A stretch of DNA of 58,494 bases from Dehalococcoidia bacterium (GTDB lineage: Bacteria; Chloroflexota; Dehalococcoidia; CAUJGQ01). The stretch spans positions 1 through 58,494 of the forward strand of contig DATGEL010000066.1 of assembly GCA_035310145.1 (NCBI GenBank), given 5' to 3'. Each line of letters begins with the position of its first letter. Within the stretch, counting starts at the first letter, position 1. Below are positions 18,869 to 53,893 of this stretch, one piece after another. A model generated the notes under the pieces. The model saw nothing but the letters and a program-made list of their open reading frames with translations, was not told where the DNA came from and ran no database searches. The translations under genes and the position numbers were made by a program.

Positions 18869-20068
18869 ATGGTCGCGGCGCGTACCAGTGTCTTCACCGA
18901 ATCCGTCATCCGCGAGATGTCGCGGCTGGCGGCGCTGCACGGCGCCGTCAACCTGGCGCAGGGTTACCCCGACTTTCCCGCCCCGCGCGCGATCAAGGAC
19001 GCCGCCATCGCGGCGATCGAGGCCGACCACAACCAGTACGCCATCACCTGGGGAGCGAAGCCGCTGCGCGACGCGATCGCGAAGAAGGCGCTCGCCTTCA
19101 ACGGCATCACGGCCGAGCCGGAGCGCGACATCACCGTCACCTGCGGAGCGACCGAGGCGATGATGGCGACGATGCTCGCCTTGATCGAGCCGGGCGACGA
19201 GGTGATCGTCTTCGAGCCGTTCTACGAGAACTACAACCCCGACGCCGCGTTGGCCGGCGCGAAGCTCGTGTTTGTGCCGCTGCGGCCGCCGGAATACCGC
19301 TTCGAATCAGCAGAGCTACGGGCGGCGTTCGGACCGCGCACGAAGGCGATCGTCGTCAACACGCCGCACAATCCGACCGGGCGTGTGCTCAGCCGCGCGG
19401 AGTTGGAGACGATCGCGGGCCTCTGCCGCGAGTTCAATGTGCTGGCGATCACCGACGAGATCTACGAGCACATCATCTATGACGGCCGTCAGCACATCAG
19501 CCTGGCGACGCTGCCGGAGATGGCCGAGCGCACGATCACGATCAGCGGCTTCTCGAAGACCTTCAGCGTCACGGGCTGGCGGCTCGGCTACGTGATCGCC
19601 CGCCCGCCCTGGAGCGACGCGATTCGCAAGTGCCACGATTTTCTTACCGTGGGCGCGCCCGCGCCGCTGCAGGAGGCGGGAGCGGTGGCGCTGGGCTTTC
19701 CGCCCAGCTTCTACGACGAGTTGCGCGCCAGCTACACACGCCGGCGCGCCATGCTGCTGGAAGCGCTGCAAACCGCGGGCTTCTCCTGCGCCGCCCCTGA
19801 GGGCGCCTACTACATCATGGCCGACATTCGGCCGCTGACCGATCTCGACGACGTCCAGTTCACGCGCTTCTTGATTCGGGAGATCGGCGTGGCGCCGGTG
19901 CCTGGCAGCAGCTTCTGCAAGGACGAGGCGCTGGGTCGTTCCACGATCCGCTTCACCTTCAGCAAGGGCGAGGACACGCTGGCCGAGGCGGCACGGCGGC
20001 TGCCGGCGCTAAGCACGGGCGGCAGGCAGGCTCAGCTTTCAGCAATCGTAACGGAGGGCGAGGCATGA
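18869..20068 (+). CDS. class I/II PLP-dependent aminotransferase
   Basis: A 399-residue fold-type I aminotransferase. It contains NLAQGYPDFPAP near residue 28, VTCGATEAMMATMLAL, VVNTPHNPTGRVLS, ITDEIYEHIIYDG and the PLP lysine in ISGFSKTFSVTGWRLGY (about residue 236), ending with the substrate arginine in RSTIRFTFSK. The pattern matches the kynurenine/glutamine transaminase and methionine-forming (MtnE-like) branch. Its stop overlaps the ATG of glpX by four bases, so the two are co-expressed although their pathways are not obviously linked. Confidence 0.9.
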   Translation: MVAARTSVFTESVIREMSRLAALHGAVNLAQGYPDFPAPRAIKDAAIAAIEADHNQYAITWGAKPLRDAIAKKALAFNGITAEPERDITVTCGATEAMMATMLALIEPGDEVIVFEPFYENYNPDAALAGAKLVFVPLRPPEYRFESAELRAAFGPRTKAIVVNTPHNPTGRVLSRAELETIAGLCREFNVLAITDEIYEHIIYDGRQHISLATLPEMAERTITISGFSKTFSVTGWRLGYVIARPPWSDAIRKCHDFLTVGAPAPLQEAGAVALGFPPSFYDELRASYTRRRAMLLEALQTAGFSCAAPEGAYYIMADIRPLTDLDDVQFTRFLIREIGVAPVPGSSFCKDEALGRSTIRFTFSKGEDTLAEAARRLPALSTGGRQAQLSAIVTEGEA

Positions 20069-21078
20069 CTACCGTGAAGGCGCCGATCGAACGCAACCTG
20101 GCGATGGAGCTGGTACGAGTCACGGAGATCGCCGCGATGAACGCGGCGCGCTGGATGGGCCGCGGCGACAAGAACGCCGCGGACGACGCGGCCGTGCGCG
20201 GCATGCGCGCCGCCGTGCAATCGATCGACATGGACGGCATCGTCGTGATCGGAGAGGGCGAGAAGGACGAGGCGCCGATGCTGTACTTCGGCGAGAAGGT
20301 GGGCAACGGCAATCAGCCCGCCGTCGACATCGCCGTCGATCCGCTGGAAGGCACGCGCCTGACCTCGCTGGGCCTGCCGAACGCGCTTTCGGTAATCGCG
20401 TTGGCCGAACGCGGGGCGATGTTCGGCATCCGCGAGATCGTCTACATGAACAAGATCGCGGTTGGGCCGGAGGCGGCCGGTTCGATCGACATCCTCGCCT
20501 CGCCCAGCCAGAATCTGCGCTGGATCGCCAAGGCGAAGCGCTGCCTCGTCTCCGATCTCACGGTGTGTATCCTCGACCGCGACCGCCACGCAGAACTGAT
20601 TGCCGAGTGCCGCCGGGCCGGGGCGCGCATCAAGCTGATCCCGGATGGCGATGTCTCCGGCGGCATCTCACCGGCCGTGGGCGAGACCGGCGTGGACGTG
20701 CTGATGGGGGTGGGCGGCGCCACGGAGGCGGTGCTGACGGCGGCGGCGATGCGCTGCCTCAAGGGCGAGATCCAGTGCCAGCTCTGGCCGCGCAACGACG
20801 ACGAGCGACAGCAGGCCGAGGCCGCCGGCTACGTCATCTCGAAGGTCTATTCGACCGAGGACCTGGTCGGCACGGGCGACGTCTTTTTCGCCGCGACCGG
20901 CGTGACCGACGGGGAGATGTTGAAGGGCGTGCGCTACTTCGGCGGCGGCGCCACGACCAACTCGATCGTGATGCGCTCACATTCCGGCACCGTGCGCTGG
21001 GTCACCGCGCGGCACGACTTTGAGCAGATGCGCAAGGTCGGCGAGGGCAGCGGCATCATCGGCCCCGGCGAGCTGTGA
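20065..21078 (+). CDS. glpX: class II fructose-1,6-bisphosphatase
   Basis: A 337-residue GlpX. VIGEGEKDEAPMLYFGEKVG and the metal/phosphate motif AVDPLEGTRLTS are diagnostic, with KLIPDGDVSGGISPA and GVGGATEAVLTAAAM following. It converts fructose 1,6-bisphosphate to fructose 6-phosphate in gluconeogenesis. The FBP aldolase gene lies convergently just downstream and pckA is elsewhere in the window, so a gluconeogenic set is present. Coupled by ATGA to the upstream aminotransferase. Confidence 0.95.
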   Translation: MTTVKAPIERNLAMELVRVTEIAAMNAARWMGRGDKNAADDAAVRGMRAAVQSIDMDGIVVIGEGEKDEAPMLYFGEKVGNGNQPAVDIAVDPLEGTRLTSLGLPNALSVIALAERGAMFGIREIVYMNKIAVGPEAAGSIDILASPSQNLRWIAKAKRCLVSDLTVCILDRDRHAELIAECRRAGARIKLIPDGDVSGGISPAVGETGVDVLMGVGGATEAVLTAAAMRCLKGEIQCQLWPRNDDERQQAEAAGYVISKVYSTEDLVGTGDVFFAATGVTDGEMLKGVRYFGGGATTNSIVMRSHSGTVRWVTARHDFEQMRKVGEGSGIIGPGEL

Positions 21079-26912: not shown

Positions 26913-27530
26913 TTAGCGCGCCAGTAGGCCGGCGGCGTAGTAGCTCACGATCTGGTCGGTGCCGGCGACGATCGCGGCGGTGTTGTCGAGTCCTGAGCCG
27001 CGAATGTAGTAGTGCATGATGCCGATGATCGCCCGGGCGCAGTTGTCCACATCGAGCGATCGCAACTCGCCGCTGCGCTCGCCGTCGCGCAGGATGCGCT
27101 TGAGGATAGCGACGACCATGCGGCCGTGCGCCGCGGCGATCTCGGTGAAGACCGGTGCGGGCAACGTGGGCAGCTCGCGCAGGCCGACGGCGAGGCCCGG
27201 GAAATCCTTGAGAAAGCAGGTGAGATAAAGACGGGCAAAGGTGCCGAGGCGGCCGACGGCGTCGCCCTGCTCCGCAATCCGCTCGTTCAAGCGCTCCTCC
27301 AGGCGGCCGAGCTGCTCCCCCACCACGGCGGCGAAGAGGCCGTCCTTGCCCTGGAAGTGGTAGTAAACCATCGGCTTCGTCGCGTGCGAGCGCTCGCTGA
27401 TCCGCCGCAGGGAGCTGCCGTGATAGCCGAACTGTTGAAACTCCTCTGCCGCCGCTCCGAGGATGCGCTCCTTGACGCCCGGCGGCCTGGTTCTGGTCGT
27501 CGGTGCGCTTGCTGCCGCCGTGCTCGTCAC
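26913..27530 (-). CDS. TetR-family transcriptional regulator
   Basis: A 205-residue repressor. The N-terminal helix-turn-helix is VKERILGAAAEEFQQFGYHGSSLRRISERSHATKPMVYYHFQGKDGLF (roughly residues 19-66), and a helical ligand-binding domain follows. The C-terminal part (NCARAIIGIMHYYIRGSG) fits the TetR_C subfamilies that sense hydrophobic ligands or acyl-CoA. It diverges from the di-iron oxygenase-like genes, and repeated GGTAT/ATACC half-sites in the 176-base gap overlap their promoter. It is therefore the likely repressor of that block. The inducer is unknown. Confidence 0.9.
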   Translation of the reverse strand: MTSTAAASAPTTRTRPPGVKERILGAAAEEFQQFGYHGSSLRRISERSHATKPMVYYHFQGKDGLFAAVVGEQLGRLEERLNERIAEQGDAVGRLGTFARLYLTCFLKDFPGLAVGLRELPTLPAPVFTEIAAAHGRMVVAILKRILRDGERSGELRSLDVDNCARAIIGIMHYYIRGSGLDNTAAIVAGTDQIVSYYAAGLLAR

Positions 27531-27626
27531 TCCCGCCTCCTTGGCCTGCCCCGCCTGTCCCGCATGCTAGCACCGCCCTCCGCTGCCGCGCGAACCGCGC
27601 CTTCAACATGCCCCGTCTCAAGATCC

Positions 27627-27675
27627 TTGACAGGCGACGCCCCGAGGGGGTATGACCAAACTATACCATCGGTAA
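27627..27675 (+). promoter_or_regulatory. promoter with TetR-type operator half-sites
   Basis: TTGACA at 27627-27632 and TATGAC at 27651-27656 (spacing 18) form a promoter for the di-iron gene. Three half-sites follow in alternating orientation: GGTAT (27649-27653), ATACC (27663-27667) and GGTA (27671-27674). The last two make the palindrome TACC-ATC-GGTA (27664-27674) and the first two an inverted repeat with 9-base spacing. The first overlaps the -10 box. Binding by the neighbouring TetR protein is inferred. Confidence 0.65.
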
Positions 27676-27706
27676 AAACCCGCGGGAAAACGCCGGAGGG
27701 AGAGCA

Positions 27707-28780
27707 ATGCCGGTCAGCGCCGCCATGTTGGAGCAACTTCGCACCGAACCCAACGCGCCGGGCCTGGATCTGAGCTGGCTGAAGCCGGGCACGCCCTGGG
27801 GCTCCCGCGCGAACTTCGGCCGCAAGGGCTTCACGATCGAGCAGGCTGAGCAAGGCAGCTACGGCCAGGTTCCCGACCTCACCGCCAACTACACCGGCCG
27901 CCCGCGCGGCGCCGGCGTCCGGCCCGAGGCGCCGCGGCTCGGCCCGCGCTGGACCAACAAGTCGGAATCGTGGTCGGCGTCCGTGCAGATGCTTTACGAA
28001 GAGGCGCAGGCGCGGCAGTGGTCCAGCGCCGTGGACGTGCCCTGGCACGAGCTGTCCCAGTTGCCGGACGACATGGAACTGGCGATGTGCCAGCTCTGCA
28101 CGTTTCTCACCCAGGTCGAGTTCATCGCCGCCGACCTGCCCGGCCGCTACCTGCCGCAGATCAGCGCCGACCACTACGAGGTCGCACTGTTCGTCGGCAC
28201 GCAGATCATGGACGAGGCGCGGCACGAGGACGTCTTCCGCAAGCGGGCGCTGGCGAACGGCTGCGGCCTCCTGCAGGCCGGCCCCGGCGCCGTTGGCCTG
28301 CTGCAGGTCACGGACTTCACCGAGATGACCACCATTCTCCATCTGGTAGCCGAGGGTTTCGTCCAGAGCCTCTTCCGCATGGGCGAGCTGATCAGCAGCA
28401 ACGAGGCGGAGAAGCGCATGTTCCGCCTCGCGGCGCAGGACGAGAGCCGCCACGTTGCCTTCGGCGTGACGCACATGAAGTACCTGATCGAGACGGAGCC
28501 GGAGCGGCGCGAGGAGATCCACCACTACCTCGACCGCCAGGAGGGCCTGCTCGGCACGACGCAGGCCGGCCTCACCAGCGGCGGGCAGTCGGCAGAGGCG
28601 CTTGCAATCTTGCTCGGCGGCGGCAAGCACCAGACCGACCTCGGCTATCAGAAGCTGATGGCGATCCGCCGGCGGCAAATCAACGAGTACATGCACCGGC
28701 TTGAAGTCGTCGGCCTGGGCGACCGGCGCGAGCGCATGAACCCGGACATGCAGAAGTTCCTCGATCCGCCGCGCAACTAG
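27707..28780 (+). CDS. ferritin-like di-iron carboxylate protein, putative oxygenase/oxidase subunit
   Basis: A 357-residue helical protein with the full di-iron ligand set: Glu138; Glu170 and His173 in DEARH; Glu216; Glu246 and His249 in DESRH. The two DE-x-RH motifs and their spacing (32 and 30 residues from the preceding Glu) match the signature of bacterial multicomponent monooxygenase alpha subunits. The length is nearer to ribonucleotide reductase R2 or monooxygenase beta subunits. No R2 radical tyrosine can be assigned with confidence and no R1 gene is nearby. The RBS GGAGGGAG is strong. Its paralogue follows directly. Oxygenase, N-oxygenase or ligand-binding oxidase are all possible; di-iron chemistry is well supported. 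Confidence 0.82.
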   Translation: MPVSAAMLEQLRTEPNAPGLDLSWLKPGTPWGSRANFGRKGFTIEQAEQGSYGQVPDLTANYTGRPRGAGVRPEAPRLGPRWTNKSESWSASVQMLYEEAQARQWSSAVDVPWHELSQLPDDMELAMCQLCTFLTQVEFIAADLPGRYLPQISADHYEVALFVGTQIMDEARHEDVFRKRALANGCGLLQAGPGAVGLLQVTDFTEMTTILHLVAEGFVQSLFRMGELISSNEAEKRMFRLAAQDESRHVAFGVTHMKYLIETEPERREEIHHYLDRQEGLLGTTQAGLTSGGQSAEALAILLGGGKHQTDLGYQKLMAIRRRQINEYMHRLEVVGLGDRRERMNPDMQKFLDPPRN

Positions 28781-28905
28781 CTCGGCGCCGTTCGCGGTCT
28801 GGCTGGAGCCGGCCGCGGCGCATAGCCCGTCTTGACATCGCGCGCCGCTTCGGGTTGACCGGCATTTGCACGTCAATCGGTTCAAGGGCCCAGGGAGGCA
28901 AAGGC

Positions 28906-30036
28906 GTGACCACTCAGTCCACCAATGAGCAGGCGGCCGCAGAGCAGCAGCCGGAGCGCGACTTCGCCTGGATGCGCGTGCCGACGCAGCGCGGCATGAA
29001 GCCGGTGATCGGCCCGCAGGGCCTGCGCATCCGCGACATCGACCAGGGCAGTTACGCCTTCGTGCCGGACCGCTGGCCCTACAAGACCGACCTGCCGCGC
29101 GGCGCCTTCCCCGCCACGCAGACGTTCCTCGAAGCGAGCTACTCGCTCTACGACAAGTGCGACGTCTGGTCGGAAAACGCCGCCGACCTCTATGAGGACG
29201 CGATCCGCGACCGCTGGGCCTCGGCGACCGATGTGCCCTGGGAGGCGCTCAAGCCCTACGACGAGATCGCCGAGCGCGCCATCTGCCAGATCCTCACCGA
29301 GATCTCAGAAGCATCGCTGGTCGGTATGCAGATCTTCTCCGCCTGGCTGGAGCGGATCAGCTACGGCTTTTACGAGGTCAAGAGCTACCTGGCGACGGAG
29401 ATCTACGACCTCGGCCGTCACCACGAGGCGCTGCGCAAGCGGGCGCTGGCCAACGGCGGCGGCCTGGGCCTGCAGTCTCCGGGCATGTACCACCGCGCGA
29501 TCACTTCGGCCATGCGGCTGACCGAGTTAGTCATCGCGCAGAACCTGGTGCGCGGGCTGTACCACGTCGTGGTGCTGGAGGCGCTGCGCGAGGCGGCCAA
29601 CAACGACGCCGACCGCACGCTCTATTCTCTCGTGATCCGCGACCTCTGGCGGCAGATCGACTTCGCGGTCGGCCACGTCGATTACTACCTGAAGTCGCAG
29701 CCGGAGAAGCACGACCAGCTCCACGTCTGGCTCGGCCGGGCGGAGCTGCTGCTGGTCGCCGAAGTGCAGCGCGACACGCCGTTCAACGAGGCGCTGATTC
29801 TGCTGCTGGGCGACTCCGTGGAGGAGGGCCGGCAGCGGCTCACGCAGCTGCGCCAGCGCTTTGTCGCGGCCTATCTGCACCGGCTCTACGCGGCCGGCGT
29901 CTACAACCGCCTGGAGAAGCTGGCGCCCGAGATCGCGCGCTACGCGCCCGAGGGCGCCGCCACGCCGAACACGGCGTTGATGACACCTCCGTTTCCCGAT
30001 CCGCTCGCACGGCCGGCCCAGGCCGTGGCGGTCTAA
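28906..30036 (+). CDS. paralogous ferritin-like protein that has lost the di-iron ligands
   Basis: A 376-residue paralogue of the preceding gene; both share the N-terminal QGSY-x-x-VPD motif, W-x-SA-x-DVPW, and RKRALANG-x-GL. Aligning the helices, the ligands become Ser137 (for Glu138), Leu169 (Glu170), His172 (His173 kept), Gln212 (Glu216), Leu247 (Glu246) and Gln250 (His249), so five of six are gone. It cannot bind the cofactor in the usual way. The parallel is the metal-free beta subunit of soluble methane and toluene monooxygenases. The GTG start has GGGAGG upstream. A strong terminator follows at 30061, so the pair forms one transcript. Confidence 0.82.
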   Translation: MTTQSTNEQAAAEQQPERDFAWMRVPTQRGMKPVIGPQGLRIRDIDQGSYAFVPDRWPYKTDLPRGAFPATQTFLEASYSLYDKCDVWSENAADLYEDAIRDRWASATDVPWEALKPYDEIAERAICQILTEISEASLVGMQIFSAWLERISYGFYEVKSYLATEIYDLGRHHEALRKRALANGGGLGLQSPGMYHRAITSAMRLTELVIAQNLVRGLYHVVVLEALREAANNDADRTLYSLVIRDLWRQIDFAVGHVDYYLKSQPEKHDQLHVWLGRAELLLVAEVQRDTPFNEALILLLGDSVEEGRQRLTQLRQRFVAAYLHRLYAAGVYNRLEKLAPEIARYAPEGAATPNTALMTPPFPDPLARPAQAVAV

Positions 30037-30060
30037 GATGGGTCCAAACCCGGATGGAAT

Positions 30061-30090
30061 AGCGGGCTGGCCGTGGGGCCGGCCCGCTTT
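30061..30090 (+). terminator. intrinsic terminator after the di-iron pair
   Basis: A 12-bp stem, AGCGGGCTGGCC against GGCCGGCCCGCT with one G-T pair, and a GTGG loop, followed by TTTCGATT. It lies 25 bases after the stop and separates the di-iron pair from the Fe-S flavoprotein gene. Confidence 0.88.
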
Positions 30091-30096
30091 CGATTG

Positions 30097-30110
30097 TGTG
30101 ACAGGTCACA
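30097..30110. promoter_or_regulatory. TGTGACAGGTCACA palindrome (candidate operator)
   Basis: Six-base arms TGTGAC and GTCACA around an AG centre. It resembles a CRP/FNR-family half-site pair but with a shorter spacer (4 rather than 6 bases between TGTGA and TCACA). It lies between the terminator and the start of the Fe-S flavoprotein gene, about 100 bases upstream of its ATG, so it may control that gene. No regulator of this family is in the window. Confidence 0.4.
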
Positions 30111-30209
30111 AACCGCGCGAAGTGCACCGCCTCCGGTGCTGGCGCAGGCTGTGCTCAACCGGTGACAATGGAGGCGTTGGGCGGGGTGGCACCGCCGCCG
30201 GGGAGCGGC

Positions 30210-31769
30210 ATGGCAAACAGCATCTGGGCACGGCTGAGCATCTCGGCCCAGCCGAGCGACAAGCAGTCTCCCGAAGAGCGCGTCAACAACTGGGAAGAGG
30301 TCTACCGGGGACTCGACCTCCAGCGGGCGCGGCTGGAGGCGGCCCGCTGCATCCACTGCCCGACCACGCCCTGCATCGAAGCCTGCCCCGCGCACAACGA
30401 TATCCCCGGGGCACTGCTGCTGCTAGAAGGCGGCGACCCGATCGGCGCGGCCAACAGGTTCCGCGAGACGTCAAACCTGCCGGAGATGTGCGGCCGGCTC
30501 TGCCCGCACGAGCGCCTGTGCGAGGGCGATTGCCCGGTTGGTTTCGCCATTCGCCCCGATGGTCGCAAGGAACCGCCGGTGGGGATCGGCGTGCTCGAGG
30601 CGTTCGTCGCGGACACGCAGCGGGCGCAGCTCGGCGGCTTTCCCCTGCCGGCCGATCTGCCTGAGCCGAGCGGCCGGCGCGTGGCCGTGGTCGGCTCGGG
30701 GCCGTCCGGTCTCACCGTGGCCGAGGAGCTGGTGAAGCGCGGCCACGAGGTCACCGTCTTCGACCAGTGGCCGTCGCCGGGCGGGGCGCTGGCGCACGGC
30801 ATTCCCAACTTCAAGCTGGCGAAGCGCATTCTCAGCGAGAAGCTGCGCTTCCTCACCATGCTCGGCGCCGACTTCGTCAGCGGTGTGCGCGTGGGGCGAG
30901 ACGTGAGCGTGGACGAGCTGCTCGACGAGGGCTTCGACGCCGTCTACCTGGCGACGGGAGCCGGGGTGGACCGCGAGCTGCGCATCCCCGGCGCCGCGGA
31001 GTACGAAGGAGTCTCGACGGCCACGGAATTCCTGCTGCGGGCCAACGCCGCCAGTGGTCGGTTGCTCGCCTCCGGCAACGGCGCGGCGCCCATGGCCCTG
31101 GTGCGCCAGGAGGAGGCGCCGGCTGTGGTGGTGATCGGCGGTACCGATGCCGCCATGGACAGTGTGCGCACGGCGTTGCGCATGGGCGCCTCGTCGGTGA
31201 CGCTGGCCTGCAGCGGCACACGCGAAGAACTGGCAGCCCGCGCCGAAGAAGAGACCGACGCGCGCGCCGAGGGCGTGCTCTTCCGCTTCGAAACCGAGCC
31301 GGTGGCCTTCACCGGCGACGCCGAGGGCCGGCTGACGGGCGTGCGTCTGCGGCGGCTTGAGCGCGGGGAGGTGGATGACGGCGGCCGCCTGCGCCGTTTC
31401 GCGGTGCCTGGCTCGGACTTCGAGATCCCTGCCCGCCTTGCCGTGATTGCGATCGGCTACGAGCCCGACCCGCTGCTGCGCGAGGCCACCGAAGGATTGA
31501 ACACGAACGGCAACGGCTACCTGCATACCGAAAGCGCGGACGGCCACACGAGCCGCCGCGGTGTTTTCGCCGGCGGCGATGTCGTGCACGGAGAGGGACT
31601 CGTGGTTACCGCGATGACCGCCGGCCGCCGCGCCGCAGCCGCGATCGACGCTTACCTGCGCGAGCTCGAGCTGCAGCCGTCGGCGCCGTCCTCGCTGCCG
31701 CCGGTGGCTGGTTCCGCGCCGCGCAACCGCTGGTTCCGACGTGCGCGGTCAAATGGCGGCTCCGCCTGA
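30210..31769 (+). CDS. GltD-like NAD(P)-dependent Fe-S flavoprotein oxidoreductase
   Basis: A 519-residue protein of the glutamate synthase small-subunit family. Two cysteine clusters near the N-terminus, C47-x2-C50-x4-C55-x3-C59 and C94-x3-C98-x5-C104-x3-C108, can hold two 4Fe-4S centres. An FAD fold follows (VAVVGSGPSGLTVAEEL, about residue 158) with GALAHGIPNFKL, then a nucleotide motif VVVIGGTDAAMDSV and a closing FAGGDVVHGEGLVVTAMTAGR. Such subunits pass electrons from NAD(P)H to a partner. No GltB is present, so the adjacent di-iron pair is a plausible acceptor. The ATG at 30210 follows GGGGAG; an earlier ATG at 30162 is less likely. Confidence 0.88.
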   Translation: MANSIWARLSISAQPSDKQSPEERVNNWEEVYRGLDLQRARLEAARCIHCPTTPCIEACPAHNDIPGALLLLEGGDPIGAANRFRETSNLPEMCGRLCPHERLCEGDCPVGFAIRPDGRKEPPVGIGVLEAFVADTQRAQLGGFPLPADLPEPSGRRVAVVGSGPSGLTVAEELVKRGHEVTVFDQWPSPGGALAHGIPNFKLAKRILSEKLRFLTMLGADFVSGVRVGRDVSVDELLDEGFDAVYLATGAGVDRELRIPGAAEYEGVSTATEFLLRANAASGRLLASGNGAAPMALVRQEEAPAVVVIGGTDAAMDSVRTALRMGASSVTLACSGTREELAARAEEETDARAEGVLFRFETEPVAFTGDAEGRLTGVRLRRLERGEVDDGGRLRRFAVPGSDFEIPARLAVIAIGYEPDPLLREATEGLNTNGNGYLHTESADGHTSRRGVFAGGDVVHGEGLVVTAMTAGRRAAAAIDAYLRELELQPSAPSSLPPVAGSAPRNRWFRRARSNGGSA

Positions 31770-36942: not shown

Positions 36943-38391
36943 TCAGGCGATGCCCGCCATCGAGCGCACCAGGTCCAGGGTGCGCCGCGCGTCGTAGGCG
37001 CGGGCAATCATCAGCTTCTCTGCTTCGAGCGAGCCTTCGGCGTGGATCGCCAGCACCTCTTGATAGCCGCCGTATTCCGATGAGGTCAGATCCTTCACGA
37101 AGTTGATCGCCCGCAGGCGCTCGCGGCCGTCCACGCCGGCCCGACCGCCGAAGTAGTGGCGCAGATACGGCCCGATCTCCTCGCTCTCCACATCCTCCAC
37201 ACCCGGACCGGTCACCAGCAGCCCGCCGGTGATGTCCTGCACCATCGCCACGGCCTCGTGGTAGTGGTGCGCGAAATGATATTTGGCCATGTTGACAGTC
37301 AGCGCGTCGGGCGCCGCGATGCCGAGTTCGCCCACGCGGCAGCGCAGGGCGGCATGGTGCGTGAGGCCGCGCAATGTCTCCGCATAGCTGATCAGCTGAA
37401 TCAGCTTGTCGCGCACGTGCGCCGCGCGGCTGATGCCGTTGTAGTCGGCCATCAGCTGCGCCGAGCCGACCAGCGCGTCCACCAGCGGCAGCTTGTACGA
37501 GATCGCGGTGAAGCGGTGAAACTCGACGAATCCGAGGGCAAGCGGGCCCGCGTACTGCCACTCGCCGGCCAGAAACACGCGCTCCCAGGGCACGAAGACG
37601 TCGTCGAAGACGGTCGTCGTCTCCATCATCTTGTGGCGCGCGCTGATCGGGAACTCGAACTCGGTGCGCTCCTCCTGGCCGGAGGAGCCGTACGGGCTTG
37701 CGAGCAGCTTCAAGCCGGGCGTGTTCAGGGGAAGGGCAAAGGAGACCGCGTACTGGGCGTCGGCCTCACCCATGGCCCGCGTCGGCAGCACGATCAACTC
37801 GTTAGCGTTGGTGGAGACCGAGGTGTGGCACTTGGCGCCGCGCACGACGATGCCGTCGTCCCGCCGCTCGACGATGCGCACGTAGTAATCCGGGTGCTCC
37901 TGGTCGGCCGGCCCCTTGGCGCGGTCGCCCTTGACGTCGGTCTGTGCCACGGCCAGTGCCAGGTCGCTGTCGCGGCAGTGCTCGTAGAACGCCTTGACGC
38001 GCGGCAGGTACTGCGTGCCCAGCTTCGCGTCCAGCTGCGCCGCGACCAGGTGCAAGCCGAAGAGGGCATCGGTGCCGATCTCCTTGATCAACACCACCAG
38101 CGTGTTGCCCAGCGCCGTCGCCTGCTCGATCAGGGCGCTGCGCTTGAGCAGGTCGTCCACGTTCTCGGGCAGTTTGTAGTAGCGGCTGTATGGCGCTCCG
38201 GGGCCGTCGCTGACCACCGCCAGCTCGTGGTATCCGGGGTTCTCGGCCATCTCGTAGTCGATCGCCGCGTGATCGACGGCTACTCTGATCACTGGATGGG
38301 TGGTGACGTCGTCCACGCGGGCGCCGCGAAAGTAGACCGTGCGGCCGTCCTTGAGGCTGTCTCGATACTGCTGGGGGGTGCGGAGTGCCAC
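36943..38391 (-). CDS. HpaB-family flavoprotein (4-hydroxyphenylacetate 3-hydroxylase / 4-hydroxybutyryl-CoA dehydratase fold)
   Basis: A 482-residue acyl-CoA-dehydrogenase-like protein: MALRTPQQYRDSLKDGRTVYFRGARVDDVTTHP, QTDVKGDRAKGP, DGIVVRGAKCHTS, VFDDVFVPWERVFLAGEW, and a C-terminal YHEAVAMVQDITGG. The TDVKGDRAKGP segment leans to the dehydratase/isomerase branch, but the cysteines that hold its 4Fe-4S cluster (a C-x3-C pair and a late Cys) are absent. A flavin-dependent hydroxylase is therefore more likely. Hydroxylases of this type need a flavin reductase (HpaC), which is not nearby. The ATG at 38391 fits the family N-terminus. Confidence 0.87.
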   Translation of the reverse strand: MALRTPQQYRDSLKDGRTVYFRGARVDDVTTHPVIRVAVDHAAIDYEMAENPGYHELAVVSDGPGAPYSRYYKLPENVDDLLKRSALIEQATALGNTLVVLIKEIGTDALFGLHLVAAQLDAKLGTQYLPRVKAFYEHCRDSDLALAVAQTDVKGDRAKGPADQEHPDYYVRIVERRDDGIVVRGAKCHTSVSTNANELIVLPTRAMGEADAQYAVSFALPLNTPGLKLLASPYGSSGQEERTEFEFPISARHKMMETTTVFDDVFVPWERVFLAGEWQYAGPLALGFVEFHRFTAISYKLPLVDALVGSAQLMADYNGISRAAHVRDKLIQLISYAETLRGLTHHAALRCRVGELGIAAPDALTVNMAKYHFAHHYHEAVAMVQDITGGLLVTGPGVEDVESEEIGPYLRHYFGGRAGVDGRERLRAINFVKDLTSSEYGGYQEVLAIHAEGSLEAEKLMIARAYDARRTLDLVRSMAGIA

Positions 38392-52200: not shown

Positions 52201-53400
52201 ATGGCAACAGCAGGCGGCCAGCGGCGAGACGCCGCGATTGTGGGGATCTACGAGTATCCCCTGCGCAAGGTCGAAGGGATCACCCCGCTGGAAATCAAGG
52301 CAGAGAGCGCCAAGCAGGCGCTCGATGACGCCGGCCTGAAGTGGTCGGACGTGGACGCGGTCTACGACGCGGGCGACGGCGGCGGCATGGCCGGACTTGG
52401 CATCGCAGAGTACTTCGGCTGGCAGCCGAGCGTGATCGACACGACCGCGGTCGGCGGCAGCTCCTACGAGTTCCAGGCCGCGCACGCGCTGCGCGACATC
52501 GCGGCCGGCAAGGCGCGGGTCGCACTGCTCACCTACGGCTCGACCGCGCGCATGAACTCCGTGGCAATCGGCACCGGCGGCAGGCCCAGCGCCGGTCCAC
52601 CCAGCCCCGTGGGCAACATGGAAGACCCGTGGGGCATGACCCTGATCTCCAACTACGCGCTGGTGGCGCAGCGCCACATGTACCAGTACGGCACAACATC
52701 GGAGCAACTCGCCGAGATCTCGGTGGCCACGCGCCACCACGCCATGCGCAACCCCCAGGCCGTGAGGGCGATGGACGACCTGGGCTTTGTCGATACCGGC
52801 GAGCTCACCGTGCAGCACGTGGTCGAGTCCCGCATGGTGGCCGACCCGCTGCATCTGCTCGACTCCTGCATGATCTCGGACGGCGGCGGCGCGGTGGTGA
52901 TCGCCTCGGCCGATGTGGCGCGCGGCACGAAGAAGAAGCCGGTCTGGCTGATCGGCTCCGGCGAGGCGACGCGCTACCCAACCAACGACCGCGACATCAC
53001 GCGCAGCGCCGCCGAGCAGTCCGGCCCGATCGCCTTCGGCGAGGCCGGCGTACGGCCGGACGAGATCGACATCGCCATGATTTACGACTCGTTCACGATC
53101 ACGGTGCTGACGATCCTCGAAGATCTCGGATTCTGCAAGAAGGGCGAGGGCGGGCAGTTCGTGCAGGGCGGGCGGCTGCGCTACGACACCGGCTCGCTGC
53201 CGCTGAACACGGACGGCGGCGGGCTCTCTTCGAACCATCCCGGCATGCGCGGCATCTTCCTGCTGCTGGAGTCGGCGCGGCAGTTGCGCGGCGAATCGAC
53301 CTCGCAGGTGAAGGACGCGAAGCTGGCGCTGGCGCACGGCAACGGCGGCATGCTCGGCTCGCGTCACAGCGGCGGCACGATCATCCTCGCCCGCGACTGA
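52201..53400 (+). CDS. thiolase-fold protein without catalytic cysteines (SCP2-thiolase/Ltp2 aldolase-like)
   Basis: A 399-residue thiolase-superfamily protein. The first reactive-cysteine region reads DTTAVGGSSYEF (residues 80-91) with serine and glycine where thiolases have Cys, and the last one reads LAHGNGGMLG instead of a CGGG-type loop. So it cannot be an ordinary thiolase. Instead MIYDSFTITVL carries a tyrosine seen in Ltp2-type steroid side-chain aldolases, which share this fold and need a DUF35 partner. The partner follows 80 bases downstream. The start has GAGGAG upstream. Retro-aldol cleavage of a beta-hydroxyacyl-CoA is the best guess. Confidence 0.85.
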   Translation: MATAGGQRRDAAIVGIYEYPLRKVEGITPLEIKAESAKQALDDAGLKWSDVDAVYDAGDGGGMAGLGIAEYFGWQPSVIDTTAVGGSSYEFQAAHALRDIAAGKARVALLTYGSTARMNSVAIGTGGRPSAGPPSPVGNMEDPWGMTLISNYALVAQRHMYQYGTTSEQLAEISVATRHHAMRNPQAVRAMDDLGFVDTGELTVQHVVESRMVADPLHLLDSCMISDGGGAVVIASADVARGTKKKPVWLIGSGEATRYPTNDRDITRSAAEQSGPIAFGEAGVRPDEIDIAMIYDSFTITVLTILEDLGFCKKGEGGQFVQGGRLRYDTGSLPLNTDGGGLSSNHPGMRGIFLLLESARQLRGESTSQVKDAKLALAHGNGGMLGSRHSGGTIILARD

Positions 53401-53479
53401 GCCGGGATGAGCCGAGGCAAAGCACAAAAAAACAGTCCGGGCGAGCGCGTTCCGTGCAGCCCGGCGAGACGGAGTCGAG

Positions 53480-53893
53480 ATGGCAATGCGACCGCTGCCC
53501 CGCTTCCCCGAACCAGACACGGAGCCTTTCTGGCAGGCGACCAAAGAGCACCGGCTCACCTACGCAACCTGCGACGAGTGCGGCAAGGTGGTCTTCTTCC
53601 CCCGGCGCCACTGCCCGAACTGCGGCAGCAGCAAGCAGACCGTGCACGACTCGAAGGGCGAGGGCACGATCTACAGCTACAGCGTGATCCGCCAGAACCG
53701 GAACCCCGCCTTCAAGGATCTGGGCGCCTACGCTGTCGCTTACGTCGACCTGGACGAAGGCTTCCGCATGTTCTCGAACGTCGTGGGCGTCGCCGACCCG
53801 ACGAAGGAGATAAAAATCGGCCAGCGGGTGAAGGTGCGCTGGGAAGACCAGGGCGAGGGCGAAGTGTCGCTGCCGATGTTCGCGCCAGCCTGA
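53480..53893 (+). CDS. DUF35 zinc-ribbon/OB-fold protein (ChsH2-DUF35-like)
   Basis: A 137-residue acyl-CoA-associated OB-fold protein. An N-terminal helix is followed by a zinc ribbon with CDEC (residues 31-34) and CPNC (45-48), then GTIYSYSVIRQNRNPAFKDLGAYAVAYVDLDEGFRMFSNVVGV as the OB-fold. DUF35 proteins form complexes with thiolase-fold partners and channel acyl-CoA. The upstream gene is exactly such a partner. The ATG at 53480 follows GGAGTCGAG. Confidence 0.92.
   Translation: MAMRPLPRFPEPDTEPFWQATKEHRLTYATCDECGKVVFFPRRHCPNCGSSKQTVHDSKGEGTIYSYSVIRQNRNPAFKDLGAYAVAYVDLDEGFRMFSNVVGVADPTKEIKIGQRVKVRWEDQGEGEVSLPMFAPA

Follow-up and report, generated by a model that had tools for sequence, protein, structure and literature searches.

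Two neighbouring ferritin-like genes, A and B, lie within positions 26913-31769 of a 58,494 nt stretch of DNA (the window) from contig DATGEL010000066.1 of the Dehalococcoidia bacterium assembly GCA_035310145.1. Gene A (27707..28780, forward strand) encodes a putative di-metal subunit of 357 amino acids (aa), with six metal ligands and a predicted R2-like helical bundle, and gene B (28906..30036, forward strand, GTG start) encodes a degenerate paralogue of 376 aa for which the same fold is predicted. A TetR-family regulator (26913..27530, reverse strand; PF00440, E 4e-14) is divergent from A, and the 17-nt block TACCATCGGTAAAAACC (27664..27680, forward strand), located between the two genes, is a candidate TetR operator. 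B is followed by a gene for a GltD-like 4Fe-4S flavoprotein (30210..31769, forward strand; 519 aa; PF14691, E 3e-28; PF07992, E 2e-24). Its start may be at 30162, with 30210 probably being the better choice, and two 4Fe-4S clusters were read by eye from the spacing of its cysteines. The coordinates and protein lengths had been given in a preliminary description of the locus, and all of them were correct on checking.

The same description held that A and B are paralogues with shared motifs, only the first of which keeps a full active site, and this was borne out by alignment. Over an alignment of 343 columns, the two proteins share 31% identity (E 3e-54), and the QGSY and RKRALANG motifs are common to both. 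A carries all six ligands (E138, E170, H173, E216, E246 and H249), whereas B has S, L, H, G, L and Q at these positions, with only H173 being kept. A set of 102 homologues was assembled by searching 400 Chloroflexota genomes and 100 nearer relatives and fetching loci from them; some genomes in this survey may be entered twice under two labels. Ligand counts in the set were strictly bimodal, with six ligands in 58 proteins, none to two in 44, and three to five in none, so that the split between six ligands and one is far beyond chance. All 58 A proteins show the pattern EEHEEH (E, ExxH, E, ExxH), and the second-shell residues D169, R172, D245 and R248 are invariant among them. E138 and E170 are each retained in 1 of the 44 B proteins and E216 and E246 in none. 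D245 and R248 are nevertheless kept in 44/44 B despite the loss of the glutamates; therefore, B can be regarded as a maintained protein that would be unable to hold the usual di-metal site.

The two genes also travel together. B is located downstream of A, on the same strand and usually within 200 bp, at 39 of the 44 B loci. The remaining five B genes are solo, one on contig C129 of the window's own genome and the others in G277, G291, G350 and G459, and each of these genomes also has a solo A. In G277, G291 and G350, the three solo B group in a single clade and the three solo A in another, and solo A and solo B therefore look like split pairs. Among the roughly 25 genomes in which a close A was found, G421 (86% complete) was the only one where B did not appear. 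No genome with B but without A was found in the Chloroflexota searches, so that a B occurring widely on its own, the outcome which the preliminary description had set against its proposal, did not appear. No relatives were found in viral contigs, and plasmids carried only distant single ferritin-like proteins. One of these, on a Rhodococcus opacus plasmid (L137:2596-4117), lies directly upstream of the ferredoxin gene fdxA, which is a hint at the type of electron donor. Literature searches returned no description of this A/B pair.

The sub-clades of the main A clade match those of the main B clade in a 90-protein tree, and the A and B distances of 32 adjacent pairs were closely correlated (r 0.875, permutation p 0.0001). 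Species history was removed by swapping B partners only between loci of one genome. In the genomes with several pairs, 10,368 such re-pairings were compared and the true A/B pairing came third or better, which indicates that each paralogous A has its own B. A co-diverging B for every A is predicted by an obligate heteromer, but not by a shared chaperone or a decaying duplicate. B evolves at about 1.8 times the rate of A. There is good evidence in these comparisons for what would be an obligate catalytic/degenerate pair.

No Pfam or NCBIfam model claims A or B, nor does any claim c1, a small neighbouring gene of related loci that is described below. A scored 19.1 bits against PF00268 (ribonucleotide reductase R2), below the gathering score of 33.6, and its best NCBIfam signal was the R2lox model (4e-8, 32.8 bits), far under the cut-off of 194; B gave nothing useful against Pfam or NCBIfam models. 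At E 5, PF02332 (Phenol_Hydrox) and PF05138 (PaaA/PaaC) matched neither protein, and PF11583 (AurF) also matched neither, giving weak matches in distant homologues only. When the A-protein profile was compared with the Protein Data Bank (PDB) by sequence, VlmB was the best match (E 9.7e-5), and R2lox was found at about 1e-3. Structures were modelled as monomers from 10-sequence alignments, with a mean predicted local distance difference test (pLDDT) score of 65 for A and 73 for B and with cores above 80. The predicted models of both proteins match the bundles of R2lox, VlmB, ADO, R2 and the alpha subunit of the methane monooxygenase hydroxylase (MMOH). For A, the best Foldseek matches were R2lox, and PaaAC structures were listed at E about 0.007-0.01 for the monomer model. 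With VIA-align, VlmB (a Kitasatospora homologue) came top (Z 23.0, rmsd 2.7, 246 residues) and MMOH alpha reached Z 19.8 (240 residues, rmsd 3.1), the rows not telling VlmB, ADO, MMOH and R2lox apart. Based on the weak R2 and R2lox scores, the VlmB and R2lox profile matches and the matches of the predicted folds, A and B are placed as ferritin-like proteins of the R2/R2lox/VlmB branch without a named family.

Individual residues set A apart from the nearest of these enzymes. In 58/58 A, Phe occupies the site of the radical Tyr that class Ia/b R2 has four residues past its first His ligand. In R2lox, a Val (V72) and a Tyr located five residues ahead of the Glu ligand of helix E (Y162) are joined by an ether cross-link (PMC6060897). 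The Tyr position is Leu, Met, Ile or Val in nearly all 58 A, the A of the window having no Tyr in that helix, and 56/58 have Ala in place of the Val, with the register of helix B judged by eye. A resembles R2lox in its E, ExxH, E, ExxH ligands and in having Phe in place of the radical Tyr, but differs in lacking the cross-link residues and in having a degenerate partner gene. VlmB is the best PDB profile match and top VIA-align row for A; however, it is only about 18% identical to A, and N-oxygenation is not implied. Neither R2lox nor VlmB is known to need a degenerate partner.

Pairs of this kind are known from several di-metal enzymes. The alpha and beta subunits of MMOH are a metal-binding and a metal-free subunit, and A and B resemble those of the MMOH, toluene and phenol hydroxylases in combining a six-ligand protein with a ligand-free one of the same fold, the degenerate paralogue being encoded alongside. 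However, A and B are about 350 aa long, compared with about 500 for alpha, they lack a PF02332 match, and no gamma, effector or FNR-type reductase gene lies beside the pair in the window. The likeness to PaaA/PaaC would be that one operon encodes a catalytic and a structural subunit with a common ferritin-like fold, where PaaB, a small third subunit, can be compared with c1 at other A/B loci; the differences are the missing PF05138 match and the lack of a PaaE-type reductase at A/B loci. PaaA and PaaC are 17% identical (PMC4498308), against 31% for A and B. Yeast Rnr2/Rnr4 is an R2-fold heterodimer of a metal-binding protein and a ligand-deficient paralogue (PMC3824934), but it belongs to a eukaryotic ribonucleotide reductase, and A has Phe instead of the radical Tyr.

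The control of the pair by TetR, as first proposed from the window alone, is supported by the sister genome G400. This genome also has the order TetR-A-B, with a TetR that adjoins A (L115) and is 44% identical to that of the window, and a near-identical 17-nt block, TACCATCGGTAARAACC, is found between TetR and A in both genomes. There is one exact copy of the block per genome (in the sister genome R = G), both upstream of A, and the chance expectation is about 0.04 matches in the window at up to three mismatches. TetR also adjoins A at several other loci; TetR families were found in 6 of 125 near neighbours and in at most 2 of a distant control set, where they were outside the listed top families. 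It is therefore likely that the TetR (26913..27530) regulates the A/B pair, with the block as its candidate operator. At L118, L121, L050 and L053, TTAGC-N4-GCTAA-like palindromes lie upstream of A, and these are perhaps operators of another TetR type.

Taken together, A and B probably make up a single soluble heteromer, an oxidase or oxygenase with a di-metal site (Fe/Fe or Mn/Fe); the physical complex, its metal content and its O2 chemistry are what we infer from the sequences. In such an enzyme, A would bind the metals, activate O2 and hold the substrate, and B, with the same fold but without the metal site, would act as a structural or regulatory partner, as PaaC, MMOH beta and Rnr4 do. 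A and then B would be transcribed, and the adjacent TetR would repress both in the absence of an inducer, which may be the substrate or its coenzyme A (CoA) ester. A general reductase or ferredoxin from another part of the genome would probably supply the electrons. No recurrent ferredoxin or reductase gene appeared within two genes of A/B in a Pfam tally of the 125 near neighbours. Geobacillus R2lox was reported to hydroxylate alkanes (PMC10867098), and a hydrophobic substrate could therefore be plausible. Several points weigh against this interpretation. The fold models are monomers from 10-sequence alignments with mean pLDDT of 65 and 73, and fold matches cannot separate an oxygenase from an oxidase, a desaturase or a radical generator. 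In addition, about eight A loci have no adjacent B, and these, together with G421, suggest that A may act alone at times.

This last point leads to the strongest of the alternatives, in which A works by itself as an R2lox-like homodimeric oxidase, and B, a maturation factor or chaperone, stays outside the working enzyme. The closest sequence signals of A are R2lox and VlmB, both single-gene enzymes, some A genes have no B next to them, and a chaperone role has been proposed for yeast Rnr4 (PMC3824934), which gives a precedent for B. However, each A within one genome has its own co-diverging B, and a general chaperone would be shared rather than copied along with each paralogue. We therefore consider this explanation unlikely, although it fares better than the others.

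The preliminary description had proposed a three-component system, in which A and B are fed by the adjacent GltD-like reductase, and the conservation of the reductase gene near the pair in relatives was to be its check. The gene is adjacent to and co-directional with A and B in the window, and the chemistry is plausible because the di-iron enzyme BoxB is likewise served by a reductase with two 4Fe-4S clusters, BoxA (PMC4498308). However, no GltD-like gene was found at any other A/B locus compared. The sister genome G400 has a 61% identical copy on another contig, far from its A/B pairs and near a glpX-like gene, and GltD-like genes are common in members of the class without A/B. In the window's genome, gltB is present once (C61) and GltD-like genes twice (C66 and C93), and one of the latter may simply serve glutamate synthase. 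The GltD-like protein was therefore rejected as a conserved partner, its adjacency to A/B is probably incidental, and a dedicated three-component system with this reductase is very improbable. A glpX-like gene is found near the GltD-like gene both in the window (20065-21078, 9 kb away) and in the sister genome (L106:3317-4339, 1.5 kb away), which suggests that the GltD-like gene belongs to that neighbourhood. Thus, of the small multicomponent oxygenase that had been proposed, the catalytic/degenerate pair under TetR control is supported by the conserved pairing, the mirrored trees and the TetR-proximal block, and the reductase part is not supported.

Just as improbable is that B has taken on a role of its own, such as ligand sensing or the holding of another substrate, with regulation as its sole link to A. 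The faster evolution of B, and the differences between several of its sub-clades at the old ligand positions, would fit this, but the tightly mirrored evolution and the conserved fold and core motifs argue against it. Ordinary tandem duplication with one copy decaying, as tandem paralogues with lost active-site residues might suggest, is scarcely credible when 44 loci from many genera have an intact B that always keeps D245 and R248 and evolves in step with A.

If A and B form a heteromer, a third component may belong to it. A conserved gene of 145-158 aa, c1, follows the A/B genes immediately or after one intervening gene at 16 related loci, and carries the motif FPSxEWF...NTLDL...FYRFNQS (L045:8047-8484 and 15 other loci). 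It occurs as A-B-c1 (L072 and L073), as A-A-B-c1 (L120), as A-B-zinc ribbon-c1 (L044, L074, L075 and L117), at all five solo B loci, and with an A-like gene but no B at L071 and L122. In one sub-clade, B is separated from c1 by a zinc-ribbon gene of the FmdB type (L044:10997-11299, L075 and L117). Profiles from Pfam, NCBIfam and the PDB gave nothing significant for c1; among the sub-threshold PDB rows, two of the three best were sterol carrier protein-2 (SCP2)-type structures (E about 0.4-0.5), and a resemblance to SCP2 is a lead only. The preliminary description had seen no gamma subunit or effector, and this holds for the window, where none is visible, but c1 could fill an effector-like role at the related loci. 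As the window's own genome has c1 on C128 and C129, the window pair could also use c1 in trans.

Distant A-like/B-like/c1 loci are found at L079 and L128, where the degenerate partners (L079:10332-11573 and L128:7505-8671) group with distant A-like proteins and not with the main B clade. A single origin for all B was rejected by the approximately unbiased test (p-AU 0.0013) in a 32-row comparison with long branches, the question having been posed after the tree was seen. A second origin of the degenerate partner at these loci is a lead.

The window's genome (G000) has eight family members: C66 (the window), C34 and C128 each carry an A/B pair, C22 has a solo A, and C129 has a solo B together with c1 (C34, C22, C128 and C129 being L042-L045). 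Elsewhere in the window, by eye, positions 36943-38391 resemble a 4-hydroxyphenylacetate 3-monooxygenase (HpaB-type) gene, and at 52201-53893 an OB-fold (DUF35/ChsH2-like) gene comes after a thiolase-like one. Similar thiolase-like and OB-fold gene pairs are near some A/B loci elsewhere.

More tentatively, and somewhat short of probable, these genes could represent undescribed small multicomponent oxygenases consisting of A, a degenerate B and often c1, with three to four sets per genome in some Chloroflexota and with a catalytic/degenerate split that may have arisen more than once. The third subunit, c1, would perhaps be SCP2-like, carrying a lipid or another hydrophobic substrate. Twins of which one binds metal and the other does not have independent origins in methane monooxygenases, phenylacetyl-CoA epoxidase and yeast ribonucleotide reductase, and there is still debate about why the metal-free one has been retained. 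The A/B pair would add a case on another branch of the fold, close to R2lox and VlmB; its proteins are small, and the presence of several parallel sets in a genome provides natural replicates. It would also name candidate oxygenases, which family libraries miss, in the Chloroflexota, a phylum whose aerobic chemistry is little known.

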